Virus record (IMG/VR): IMGVR_UViG_3300042868_004161
Span: 1 to 44,959 of that record
Direction: 5' to 3' (one strand)
Source of the DNA: a virus
Length of the DNA: 44,959 nt
Part shown: positions 26,231 through 43,244 of the stretch, piece after piece
How positions within the stretch are numbered: position 1 is the first letter of the stretch
How the letters are laid out: every line of letters begins with the position of its first letter
The notes under the pieces: model-generated
The model's input: only the letters and a program-made list of their open reading frames with translations
The model's database searches: none
Told to the model about the DNA's origin: nothing
Position numbers and translations under genes: made by a program

Positions 26231-26504
26231 GTTTTACGGTTTATCCTGGACGGCAGAGAAACACCAGCGGGATAGATACAAGCGCTACTGGGGAAGTAGA
26301 TGTAACAGCGCAATGTCGGTGGCGAAGCTAGTGCCGACTCTACGAACGACTGGCGAGTGTTGTGGCTCCAATAAGGGTAACGACTAAAGGCACACTTCTA
26401 GGGCGGAGTGTGTCCACCAAATGGGTATTACATGTGTAACACGGGTTTATAAGAAGTAATAATTAGAAGTAACAATAAGAAACAGTTTTTTTACGAGGAA
26501 AACG
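26231..26504 (+). other. Gene-free structured leader of the ParB-like gene
   Basis: A 274-base stretch without a credible ORF or tRNA. Pairings visible by eye are CTACT/AGTAG nested within GCGCT/AGCGC (around 26282-26311), GTCGG/CCGAC around 26315-26340, and CACACT/AGTGTG around 26393-26412. An inverted repeat TTACA/TGTAA follows. The region ends with ACGAGGAAAACG, a good ribosome-binding site for the ParB-like gene. It may be a long regulatory leader or a second non-coding RNA. Confidence 0.45.
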
Positions 26505-33890: not shown

Positions 33891-34238
33891 TCAATACTCC
33901 GATGTAAGCATCAATACATTGTCGGCAAGATAGAAGCGGTACTCGCCCTCTGGACAGTCGGTAAGACTTATATTCTTTTGGAATATCCGTTTATCGTTGC
34001 CATCATCCGCTATGATCTTTGCCTTACCATCATTGACCGATAAGGTAATGACTATGAAAGGTTCGTTCTTAGTCTTTGGGTAAATCTCGGTTGCGATGAT
34101 GTCAAGAAACCAAAACGCACCAGCCTTTTCCGCAAAGTACTGCACCCCATCCGTATGCTTGAGATGAGGGTTAAACAGAAAAGTTTTATAGTAATTTTCT
34201 GTGCCGTAAAACTGAGATAAGTCGAGAGATGTTTTCAT
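33891..34238 (-). CDS. DUF6876-like protein
   Basis: A 115-residue protein. FYGTENYYKT, HTDGVQYFAEKAGAFWFLDIIATEI and EPFIVITLSV match my memory of DUF6876 (GTExYY ... TDGVxYLAExAxAYWLIDxIAS). The family is found on plasmids and phages in accessory regions and has no known role. It lies second in the minus accessory operon. Confidence 0.7.
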   Translation of the reverse strand: MKTSLDLSQFYGTENYYKTFLFNPHLKHTDGVQYFAEKAGAFWFLDIIATEIYPKTKNEPFIVITLSVNDGKAKIIADDGNDKRIFQKNISLTDCPEGEYRFYLADNVLMLTSEY

Positions 34239-34485: not shown

Positions 34486-34509
34486 AGAGATCCTAATTAA
34501 GTTAAATAA

Positions 34510-34636
34510 AAGCCTGACCCTTCACAAGCCTGACCTTCCTAAGCCCGACTCTCGCAAGCCTGACCTTCCTGCACTCCCGAACAGGCGAGTAAACCCTTGG
34601 CCTTAGCCAAGCCTGACCTTCCAAGCCTGACCTTCC
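34510..34636 (-). repeat. Six GC-rich 14-15 bp direct repeats (iteron-like)
   Basis: Copies of AAGCCTGACCTTCC start at 34510 (variant), 34526, 34541 (variant), 34556, 34609 and 34623. The first four are spaced 15-16 bases, the last two 14. Between the groups, CTTGGC/GCCAAG forms a hairpin (34596-34611). Upstream toward 34640-34790 the DNA becomes strongly AT-rich. The repeats lie between the predicted minus promoter and the first minus gene, so they would also be transcribed as GGAAGGTCAGGCTT units. Confidence 0.85.
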
Positions 34637-34667
34637 AGCCAGTATTTAAAAATACAATACATCGCTA

Positions 34668-34694
34668 AATGTACCATATTGTTTCAGTTGTCAA
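34668..34694 (-). promoter_or_regulatory. Candidate promoter of the minus accessory operon
   Basis: Read on the minus strand, a perfect TTGACA (complement of 34689-34694) is followed 15 bases later by TACATT, which is preceded by TGG as an extended -10. The spacer is short, but the -35 is exact. The transcript would include the repeat array in a ~170-base leader. Confidence 0.5.
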
Positions 34695-34766
34695 TAATAG
34701 TTGAGTAAATTAGTAGGTTATTCCTTTTTTTAGAAATAAAAATCGAGTATATATTATGTAAAACAA

Positions 34767-34858
34767 GGGGATAATAACCCTATGCAATACTCAAGTAATG
34801 CCTATATATTGCAAGGTATGAGACAATCTCAATAGGGTAATTTTGCCCTTTGCAATAC
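34767..34858 (+). promoter_or_regulatory. Duplicated leader element upstream of the amidoligase
   Basis: A unit of GGG, 7-8 AT-rich bases, CCCT, one base, TGCAATAC occurs twice: 34768-34790 and 34835-34858, 67-68 bases apart. Each GGG/CCC can form a small hairpin just before TGCAATAC. The second copy ends 3 bases before the GGAGG ribosome-binding site (34862-34866) of the amidoligase gene, so a bound factor could block translation or transcription. No convincing -35/-10 pair was found here. Confidence 0.5.
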
Positions 34859-34874
34859 ATTGGAGGTATTGAAA

Positions 34875-36167
34875 ATGATGAATTTAATGGAGCATCGGAA
34901 AACAGGGGATGGCATCAGCTATATAAGGCGAATCATCCAGCGCAATTTGGGTTGTCCCGATCATCGTTGGGGGCATACCCGATCTAATTTTTTGGATCTA
35001 AGAAAACGCTATCGGCGATTTGGTCAAGCGATGGCGGTATGCATTCAGGATGATGATGCTAGTTCGGCATTGGATTTAATTGCAGAATCCAGCGTTCGCC
35101 ATAAGTTTGGTTGGGTTGATTTCATGGATGCCCATTTCTCAGGATGTTATTTTGAGTGTCACGACTGTGACGGTGTTTTTTCGGATGATGAAGCCCACAA
35201 CGCATATGACGATTACACAATTTGCGGTTCATGTGTTGAAGGTTATCTCTACTCGGACAGAAGGGGTTGTTATGTTCGGGAAGATGACGAAGACGAAGAC
35301 GAATTGCAAAATATTCGTGAGTACCATACATCCTCGGATTGTCTAGGTCATATCCCCAGTAAATACGATAAGCGTACCCCTAGAGTACTTCTCGGACTTG
35401 AGTTGGAGATGGAGATAAAAGACAATTATTGTCGTGATGAAAGGGCAGGATTTTTGCTTGAAAGTTTAAGAAATTACGAGCATTTCGATTATGCCCTCTG
35501 CGAAAATGATGGATCGCTAAATAACGGTTTCGAGATGGTAACTGCATATACTGGCTTGGATGTTCATGCGAAGCAGTTGGAATTTTTCAAGTCTGGGTTG
35601 CGTGGTGCGATCTCGCACGATAGCGATAATTGCGGACTTCATGTCCACATCTGTAAGGCTGATATGAGTACCTTACATGGGGCGAAAATGATCTTATTCA
35701 TTAACGATCAAGCAAACCAAAAACTAATTAAAGCGATTGCTCGTAGGGATGATTCGGGCTATGCGAAGTTCAAAAATAAACAAGTGGATAAGAGTTGGCT
35801 CAAGTCTGCGATTGGTTGTGAAACTAAGCGTTCCCAGTTGCGGAATCTCAATCATGATCGATACGAAGCCCTTAATTTTAAAAATGATAAAACGGTGGAA
35901 TTTCGTCTTTTCAAGGGTTCATTGGTTTACGAGACAATCATGTCATGCCTAGAATTTACCTATGCGACATGGTTTTTTACTAGGGAATCCAGCACCAAAA
36001 ATATGACGATTGACGGTTTTCTAAAGTTCATTTGTGCTAATGAGAATCGGGGCGATACAAAATTCCTGCGTGCTTATTTAAAGGCTAGAGGGTTCGAGTT
36101 GCCCGAAAAAAATACCGTTATCCAGTTCCCAAAACAATCCGACAATCAACTTAAGAAAGTGGCTTAA
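34875..36167 (+). CDS. Amidoligase (Amidoligase_2-like) with N-terminal zinc ribbon
   Basis: A 430-residue protein from ATG 34875, which has GGAGG 8 bases upstream. A TTG at 34860 precedes that site and is rejected. Residues ~95-120 form a zinc ribbon (CHDC, CGSC). The catalytic domain, from ~170, has GLELEME (174-180), NDGSLNNGFEMVTAY, CGLHVHI (253-259) and TVEFRLFKGS (340-349). This is the order of the glutamine-synthetase-like COOH-NH2 ligases called amidoligases. They use ATP to join an amine to a carboxyl group. The next gene, 2 bases away, encodes a glutamine amidotransferase that could supply ammonia. The substrate is unknown. Confidence 0.82.
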   Translation: MMNLMEHRKTGDGISYIRRIIQRNLGCPDHRWGHTRSNFLDLRKRYRRFGQAMAVCIQDDDASSALDLIAESSVRHKFGWVDFMDAHFSGCYFECHDCDGVFSDDEAHNAYDDYTICGSCVEGYLYSDRRGCYVREDDEDEDELQNIREYHTSSDCLGHIPSKYDKRTPRVLLGLELEMEIKDNYCRDERAGFLLESLRNYEHFDYALCENDGSLNNGFEMVTAYTGLDVHAKQLEFFKSGLRGAISHDSDNCGLHVHICKADMSTLHGAKMILFINDQANQKLIKAIARRDDSGYAKFKNKQVDKSWLKSAIGCETKRSQLRNLNHDRYEALNFKNDKTVEFRLFKGSLVYETIMSCLEFTYATWFFTRESSTKNMTIDGFLKFICANENRGDTKFLRAYLKARGFELPEKNTVIQFPKQSDNQLKKVA

Positions 36168-36169
36168 TC

Positions 36170-37120
36170 ATGTGCTTACTCGTTACTCAATCCAAATCTT
36201 CCCCGATCCTTTCGGATGCGTGGCTTACCGATTTCTATGATTTCAATTCGGATGGTGTCGGGGTTATGTTCGCCAATAATGGCGATTTAGTCATTAAGAA
36301 AATCATCCCCAAAACTGCGGAAGAGTTCATCCAGTTTTATCGTGCCGATATTCAAGGTCGGGATTGTGCTTTCCATTTGCGGATGCGTACTCATGGGGAG
36401 ATCGATCTCGCTAATTGTCATCCGTATGAAGTCCTCAATCGGGCTGAGCATGGAATAGATCTATGGCTTATGCACAATGGCATTCTTTCGACTGGTAATA
36501 AGGCGAATGTGAAAATGTCCGATACATGGCACTATATCAATGATTACCTAAAGCCTATGCTTGCTGGTAATCCTGATTTCGCTTTCCATCCAGCGTTTAA
36601 AGCCCTTGTTGCGGATCATATCGGGGGATCTAATAAGTTCGTGCTTATGGATAATGAAGGTCGGCAAGTGGTCATAAATCAGGAAGAGGGGGTTTATTGG
36701 GGCGGTTTATGGCTCTCCAATACCTATGCTTGGTCGGCTAGTCGCTCGGCTGGTGATCGTCCAGTAAATGGAAAGAGGGCTAAGAAACAAGTAAAGGAAA
36801 TGCCCGAAGTGCGCTCGGTTTATAAGTATTCCAATTACTCAATGACTACTTATGACTACATGGGCAAGGGTGACTACTCGGCTAATGATGAGTATGTGAT
36901 CCAGTCAAATCTCGATGATCTCGATTACTGCGGTATCACTCATGGGGTTAGTGTTGGGATGGGGCTGGATTTCGTTGATGCGTTCGGGATGGAATCCTTT
37001 CTCGATGTTATCGATCAGGCTATGGATCGGGCTATCGATGGGGAATGGTTTACGAAGGTAATGGGGGATCATGTGAAGGCTAGAGAAGTCTTTCCATACC
37101 TTGGGAGATATACCGTATAA
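36170..37120 (+). CDS. Class II glutamine amidotransferase
   Basis: A 316-residue protein. MCLLVTQ places Cys at residue 2, the N-terminal nucleophile after Met removal. NSDGVGVMF, FHLRMRTHGEID (R71-G76) and MHNGIL (H102-G104) are the other class II (Ntn) glutaminase motifs. Such a domain releases ammonia from glutamine. No synthase domain is fused. The C-terminal ~150 residues are not recognised. It follows the amidoligase with a 2-base gap and ends in a double terminator, so the two genes form a closed two-gene unit. Confidence 0.85.
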   Translation: MCLLVTQSKSSPILSDAWLTDFYDFNSDGVGVMFANNGDLVIKKIIPKTAEEFIQFYRADIQGRDCAFHLRMRTHGEIDLANCHPYEVLNRAEHGIDLWLMHNGILSTGNKANVKMSDTWHYINDYLKPMLAGNPDFAFHPAFKALVADHIGGSNKFVLMDNEGRQVVINQEEGVYWGGLWLSNTYAWSASRSAGDRPVNGKRAKKQVKEMPEVRSVYKYSNYSMTTYDYMGKGDYSANDEYVIQSNLDDLDYCGITHGVSVGMGLDFVDAFGMESFLDVIDQAMDRAIDGEWFTKVMGDHVKAREVFPYLGRYTV

Positions 37121-37141
37121 AAACTGCTCCAATCAGTTTTT
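37119..37141 (+). terminator. Stem-loop overlapping the amidotransferase stop
   Basis: AAAAACTG and CAGTTTTT form a perfect 8 bp stem around a 7-base loop, with the T-rich arm acting as the U-tract. The symmetrical A/T arms would let it work on both strands. Confidence 0.75.
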
Positions 37142-37144
37142 AAG

Positions 37145-37168
37145 CCCCCAGCAATGGGGGTTTTTTTT
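37145..37168 (+). terminator. Strong intrinsic terminator
   Basis: CCCCC (37145-37149), a 6-base loop, GGGGG (37156-37160), then eight T. It directly follows the first hairpin, so the amidoligase unit is insulated from the terminase operon. Confidence 0.9.
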
Positions 37169-42662: not shown

Positions 42663-42847
42663 CCGAACTAGAACTATTAATTAAGCAGCTTGACGAAAAG
42701 ATAGCCCAGCTTAAAGAAGCCGTAATCCTTGGAAACTACGAAAAATTCGAGGATTACAAAAGATCGTGTGGTGAGATTCGAGGTCTGCTCATTGCTCGTG
42801 GATACGTATTAGACCTCAAAGACAAACTGGAGAAATCGGATGACTAG
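42659..42847 (+). CDS. Small coiled-coil protein after portal
   Basis: A 62-residue helical protein (MTELELLIKQLDEKIAQLKEAVILGNYEKFEDYKRSCGEIRGLLIARGYV). It overlaps the portal and GroES-like genes. This size and shape is common after phage portal genes. The role is unknown. Confidence 0.7.
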   Translation: MTELELLIKQLDEKIAQLKEAVILGNYEKFEDYKRSCGEIRGLLIARGYVLDLKDKLEKSDD

Positions 42848-43244
42848 TCCAATCGACTTAGGCAAAGCAGTAGATTTGACGCAGCTGCTTGATAAGTCAA
42901 ATGAAGAAAAAGCAACACAATTACCTAAACCCTCTGGCTATCGCATGCTGTGCGCTATCCCAGAACAGGAAAAAGAGTTCGAAAGTGGCATCGCCAAAGC
43001 TGACGAAACGATACGAAACGATGAGACATTAACGACCGTTCTCTTCGTTGTTGAACTTGGACCTGATTGTTATAAAGACACGACCCGTTTTCCTAGCGGA
43101 CCATGGTGCAAAAAAGGAGACTTTGTCCTTGTTCGCCCCTACGCTGGTAGCCGCCTAGTGATTCATGGCCGTGAATTCCGCATGATCAACGATGATTCTG
43201 TGGAAGGTATTGTGGACGATCCCCGTGGTATTAAACGAAAATAA
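42840..43244 (+). CDS. GroES-like co-chaperonin
   Basis: A 134-residue protein. After a ~30-residue leader, PSGYRMLCAIPEQEKEFESGIAKAD corresponds to the first GroES strand and mobile loop. VLFVVELGPDCYKD, CKKGDFVLVRPYAGSRLVIHGREFRMINDDSVEGIV corresponds to GxVxxVGxG ... VGDxVxFxxY...xxIxxxEYxxxxExDIxAxV. Phage versions (T4 gp31 and others) help host GroEL fold the capsid protein. It lies between the portal and scaffold genes, fitting that role. Sequence similarity is moderate. Confidence 0.75.
   Translation: MTSPIDLGKAVDLTQLLDKSNEEKATQLPKPSGYRMLCAIPEQEKEFESGIAKADETIRNDETLTTVLFVVELGPDCYKDTTRFPSGPWCKKGDFVLVRPYAGSRLVIHGREFRMINDDSVEGIVDDPRGIKRK

Follow-up and report, generated by a model that had tools for sequence, protein, structure and literature searches.

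A 44,959-nt stretch of DNA (below, the window), the IMG/VR virus record IMGVR_UViG_3300042868_004161 from a carrier described as a freshwater phage, contains two adjacent genes whose products would together form a two-subunit amide synthase, and comparison with related loci indicates that this compact cassette, composed of a leader, two genes and a terminator, moves between unrelated phages and integrative mobilizable elements. According to the predicted folds and invariant residues, the Cys2 glutaminase would free ammonia from glutamine, and the glutamine-synthetase-like amidoligase would activate a carboxylate with ATP and then amidate it. An earlier sequence-only reading had predicted an enzyme that forms amides with ATP and is supplied by a glutaminase, and both folds and residues support it; we consider this biochemistry of the pair probable. 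The target would most likely be a host-side molecule, since some carriers have no visible virion genes and defence genes lie alongside, and the likeliest payoff would be shielding of the carrier cell from competing phages, e.g., by amidated carboxylates of the envelope or peptidoglycan. Taken as a whole (amide synthase, mobile cassette, host-side target, protection against competitors), this explanation is in our judgement evenly balanced between right and wrong.

Organization of the two-gene unit

In addition to the pair, the window encodes terminase, portal, GroES-like co-chaperonin, tail, recombination, and replication genes; a tyrosine integrase was searched for in the window and not found. 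A strong Rfam match to the Betaproteobacteria-1 RNA (RF02932, 94.5 bits; positions 26239–26358, plus strand) suggests, by its presence within a phage record, a betaproteobacterial host. The window also has a ferredoxin-family phage gene (19685–20329, minus strand; phrog_3704, E 1e-83) and a GroES-like co-chaperonin gene adjoining the portal gene (42840–43244, plus strand; phrog_3188), and a DUF6876 gene (33891–34238, minus strand) adjoins the cassette. The unit has the following features.

34486–34874: private leader, a divergent intergenic region that holds a promoter-like block, a hairpin, and five repeats
34510–34632 (+): AAGCCTGACC, repeated exactly five times between the divergent genes, each copy a possible regulatory site
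34743–34768 (+): conserved block TCGAGTATATATTATGTAAAACAAGG, putatively promoter-like
34834–34849 (+): leader hairpin AGGGTAATTTTGCCCT, about 25 nt 5′ of the amidoligase start
34863–34867 (+): ribosome-binding site GGAGG, a direct reading
34875–36167 (+): amidoligase (Amidoligase_2, predicted glutamine-synthetase-like fold) with a Cys-rich N-terminal region, 430 aa
36170–37120 (+): glutamine amidotransferase of class II (Ntn, Cys2), 316 aa, stand-alone and extended at its C-terminus by a helical region
37118–37163 (+): double terminator of two stacked hairpins at the end of the unit (fold z = −4.9, equalled in 0 of 200 shuffles)

The gap of 2 bases between the genes, claimed in the sequence-only reading, is confirmed by the end of the amidoligase at 36167 and the start of its neighbor at 36170, and the leader and the double terminator are both real. 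The insulation claimed for the module holds in the window's clade and several others and fails in group g6, where the pair is part of a series of small genes that all point the same way. For the amidoligase, the start codon is ATG 34875, the upstream TTG 34860 being only a mechanical open reading frame (ORF) start.

With at most one mismatch allowed, AAGCCTGACC has eight matches in the window versus 2.7 expected, with all five exact ones in the leader, and the repeats recur at the same place in loci L003 and L016. The TCGAGTATATATTATGTAAAACAAGG block is nearly invariant across four group 1 relatives, and a weak sigma-70 consensus is seen at 34729–34757. The hairpin GGGYAATTTTGCCC is common to two phage backbones and specific to the amidoligase leader: one strand of the 789 kb of representative loci contains its core GGGYWNTTTTGCCY 12 times, and in 12 representative loci, from two unrelated backbones, this core lies 14–65 nt 5′ of the amidoligase ORF, while group g2 has a similar yet different hairpin. 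Covariation in the hairpin is suggestive, not decisive (25 out of 500 shuffles reach an equal pair count). As several of these hairpins come after a −10-like hexamer, the hairpin may mark the 5′ end of the mRNA. A glutamine or other known riboswitch was also considered, and Rfam, permissive thresholds included, gave no match in the leader.

Predicted structure and conserved residues of the two proteins

The amidoligase passes the curated cut-off of PF12224 Amidoligase_2 (E 2e-7, 31.6 bits against a cut-off of 22), as anticipated from its motifs GLELEME, CGLHVHI, and TVEFRLF, which are all in place. Counted from ATG 34875, residues E176, E178, H256, H258, E342, and R344 do not vary across 39 relatives, so that the loss of ExE or HxH residues, named beforehand as evidence against this assignment, is not observed. 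In glutamine synthetase, the motifs that bind metal and ATP correspond to the ExE, HxH, and E-x-R of GLELE, CGLHVH, and VEFR. The AlphaFold model (pLDDT 83) matches YbdK and glutamine synthetase and, more weakly, PafA/Dop; the predicted fold is thus like that of the glutamine synthetase/YbdK/PafA superfamily, with ExE, HxH, and E-x-R invariant. The structural overlap with these proteins is low (TM 0.2–0.4), and the modest overlap scores of both protein models support the fold family, not the fine structure. Comparison of the amidoligase sequence with PDB yielded no detectable match, and the sequence search against solved structures returned nothing useful. In the N-terminal region, Cys98, Cys117, and Cys120 are invariant in the 39 relatives, most of which have a CxxC..CxxC layout, and this region is probably zinc-binding.

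For the amidotransferase, the profile search foreseen in the sequence-only reading gives the expected family at a lower score, as the match to PF13230 GATase_4 (E 2.5e-4, 20.5 bits) falls just under the Pfam cut-off of 23, which is a detection threshold and not a biological criterion. Its AlphaFold model (pLDDT 84) matches EgtC, PurF, and the glutaminase domain of GlmS, and this predicted fold supports class II homology despite the sub-threshold Pfam score. Positions Cys2, R71, T74-H75-G76, N103-G104, and D118 are invariant in 39 sequences, which, together with the fold match, upholds the Cys2 glutaminase proposed from HLRMRTHG and MHNG. By analogy with GlmS, we assume that Cys2 is the nucleophile, with the Arg, the Asn-Gly oxyanion hole, and the glutamine-binding Asp in their usual roles. 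Neither protein matches a PADLOC defence family.

Linkage of the genes and their neighborhoods in viruses

The co-occurrence expected for related phages is seen throughout the survey. A search with the amidotransferase found the amidoligase directly 5′ in every locus of sufficient length, and an independent search with the amidoligase found the amidotransferase directly 3′ in 75 out of 80 loci, the other five stopping at a contig edge, i.e., in 75 out of 75 evaluable loci on viral contigs. Fusions of the two genes were looked for among the loci and none was found. The distance matrices of the two proteins (48 pairs) correlate at r = 0.94, the shuffled maximum being 0.28; for sequence distances this shows joint inheritance more than contact, as shared descent as one unit would give the same value. 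The pair is found in at least six phage backbones or gene neighborhoods, with carriers both with and without an integrase, and in records of isolated or complete phages (MEP402, Marvin, and MW202733). Phages of Clostridioides difficile and Microcoleus have a distant amidoligase whose partner is not recognisable, and a plasmid of M. intracellulare has a distant pair.

No accessory gene is common to the 81 non-redundant loci, where the most common neighbors are terminase- and primase-type genes, and the absence of a substrate gene from the unit, as originally noted, is supported by the lack of a third shared gene beyond the phage core. As candidate substrates, the most common non-core neighbors, the DUF6876 family (in various backbones) and an 81-aa Cys-rich protein, were rejected, each being near the pair in 13 out of 81 loci.

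Tiny single-span membrane ORFs adjoin the pair in groups g2–g5. Upstream they are over-represented (15/77 versus 5/112 for the remaining genes in these loci, p = 0.001, an optimistic value given the phylogenetic relatedness of the loci), the downstream excess is not significant (p = 0.11), and none is seen in the window's own clade or in g6. In seven loci (L009, L012, L026, L027, L037, L110, L119), the end of the amidotransferase gene is overlapped by single-span ORFs of 26–31 aa, most of which have a KDDIxC-like motif. One could suppose that a small co-encoded membrane peptide, modified by the pair, is the true effector: several backbones have single-span ORFs of 26–40 aa that abut or overlap the pair, and in g3 these start within the last 3–10 nt of the amidotransferase gene and share the KDDIxC-like motif. 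However, the window's clade and g6 have no such ORF, the ORF families vary by backbone, and the enrichment is modest, making this explanation quite improbable. Under the preferred explanation, with a host-side target, the upstream membrane ORFs weakly favor a link to the membrane or envelope.

Mobilizable elements of Polynucleobacter

The sequence-only reading described a phage-encoded unit, which is true for many phages, but the cassette is not restricted to them: a genome scan revealed the pair in three Polynucleobacter genomes (L064, L065, L066), on integrative mobilizable elements and not in prophages. The pair is surrounded by genes for an integrase, a MobA/VirD2-type relaxase, and a type IV coupling protein, and no virion genes were recognised in the elements. 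The left end is marked by a site, ATTTGACATAATAATGATTATACGCA, close to E. coli dif.

L065 4340–4372; L064 2530–2562: dif-like site at the left end of the elements

The elements, with a Xer-like integrase, appear to be inserted at a chromosomal dif-like site; a second dif copy at the right end was not found within the contigs examined. Between L064 and L065, the amidoligases are 85% identical and the amidotransferases 87%, compared with 63% for the integrases and 40% for the relaxases, and DNA homology begins about 460 nt 5′ of the pair and stops just past it. Conservation of the cassette far exceeds that of the remainder of the elements. The tree places the element pairs amid those of phages, and the fork that encloses them is moderately supported.

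The pair is preceded in all three elements by a leader of about 400 nt (L065 6250–6672) that is 97–98% identical, versus 53–73% for the adjoining codons. Non-coding and rich in hairpins, it folds far better than shuffles (z = −4.9); it may act as a structured RNA or, in single-stranded DNA, as a promoter or an origin. It is absent from the other Polynucleobacter genomes sampled, bar a 24-base partial match in one, and from viral contigs (searched with one exact pattern). Kinship with the phage leader was considered and rejected, as the two have no similarity.

These elements bear directly on the role of the pair. In group 1 phages, the pair adjoins the terminase and portal genes, which might indicate a virion protein as its target and a part in phage assembly; yet it also resides on mobilizable elements without a recognised virion gene, and its position differs in other phages. 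This element context argues against virion assembly, which we regard as most improbable.

A second possibility is an auxiliary metabolic function, in which the pair would produce a soluble amide or keep nitrogen in balance. Both proteins come from metabolic superfamilies, and the authors describing OM43 phages list both genes as auxiliary metabolic. However, the pair is almost absent from sampled cellular genomes, being present in three out of 151 Polynucleobacter genomes with no further match in approximately 770 order- and class-level genomes, and this scarcity argues against a borrowed metabolic gene or housekeeping enzyme. The putative zinc-binding N-terminus and the strict two-gene form are also unlike the metabolic enzymes that we are familiar with. 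We hold the metabolic role to be improbable.

Directly 3′ of the pair, L065 and L066 carry SIR2-HerA defence genes (PADLOC E 7e-85 and 1e-183), these two elements being near-copies, so that one out of two clearly distinct elements has this system; an AIPR gene lies further along the L065 element. The distribution together with the defence neighbors points to competition among mobile elements, not to virus building. A role in competition or superinfection seems to us plausible, at slightly less than an even chance. The same distribution would be expected for anti-defence cargo, in which case the pair would amidate or tag an immune protein or immune signal of the host soon after infection begins or an element enters, and so neutralise the defence of the host. 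Carriers comprise phages with or without an integrase and mobilizable elements, all of which need to survive entry, and the leader is private and, in the elements, highly structured; on the other hand, the pair in L065 and L066 adjoins intact defence genes of its own element, and a known anti-defence neighbor was looked for and not found. Counter-defence is rather unlikely in our view. Due to the defence neighbors and membrane ORFs, we give a surface change a modest edge over it, the envelope as the specific target being possible but doubtful.

Comparison with known systems

The amidoligase/amidotransferase pair itself and the hypothesis of a cell-wall or superinfection role are known and date, as cited in later papers (PMC10580990, PMC5498523, PMC11318856), to Iyer 2009. 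In phiEco32, LUZ24-like, and RIO-1-like podoviruses, an Amidoligase_2 gene is likewise near a class II amidotransferase (PMC3890496; PMC5498523), and modification of the host surface has been hypothesised for this cassette (Iyer 2009; PMC3890496; PMC5498523). Some seven genes make up the podovirus cassette, among them those for a COOH-NH2 ligase, an ATP-grasp enzyme, and a gamma-glutamyl cyclotransferase, whereas that of the window has two. The cyclotransferase (AIG2/GGACT) was found in 0 out of 28 virus records, with detection in the positive control, Stenotrophomonas phage StenR_269; a second amidoligase or an ATP-grasp enzyme was not seen among the scanned window neighbors, nor was one common to the 81 loci upon clustering and reading. 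The gene content indicates that, as far as tested, the window pair is the minimal form of the cassette. The StenR_269 cassette (L061 3022–10387) is an extended one, with a cyclotransferase, two amidotransferases, a protein annotated as glutamine synthetase, an ATP-grasp enzyme, and an amidoligase.

The same two genes are adjacent in Methylophilales phages MEP401/402, mycobacteriophage Marvin, and Caudoviricetes MW202733, with no cyclotransferase in the annotated neighborhood. Their amidoligases are distant from that of the window (24–32% identity over matched parts), and the amidotransferases are 32–36% identical where tblastn matched, that of Marvin being recognised by profile only; no evidence for a leader or a mobile element has been reported for these pairs in the literature searched. 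A mechanistic parallel is MurT-GatD, in which, according to PMC3267633, a ligase and a glutaminase subunit jointly amidate a carboxylate of peptidoglycan, as proposed here for the pair; in contrast, the MurT-GatD folds differ and the target is known.

MurT is a Mur ligase, and GatD is a class I glutaminase. The surface hypothesis is prior art, like the pair; new in the literature searched, some of which Iyer 2009 may already hold, are the minimal form across many freshwater phage backbones, the mobility of the cassette on mobilizable elements beside defence genes, and the shared leader hairpin. In a tentative and somewhat unlikely proposition, this stand-alone, glutamine-fed amidation cassette would be a weapon or shield common to phages and integrative mobilizable elements and would represent an undescribed class of immunity, or counter-immunity, that is carried by such elements and works through the covalent amidation of a host molecule.

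Biological meaning

Annotations of amidoligase/amidotransferase genes in phages go back to 2009 or earlier and carry a guessed role in superinfection, with no experiment behind the guess in the literature searched. The minimal two-gene form on Polynucleobacter elements without visible virion genes makes this guess directly testable, given that it involves just two genes and a single private promoter region and that its catalytic residues are clear. It also suggests that the question is one of mobile-element conflict rather than phage metabolism.
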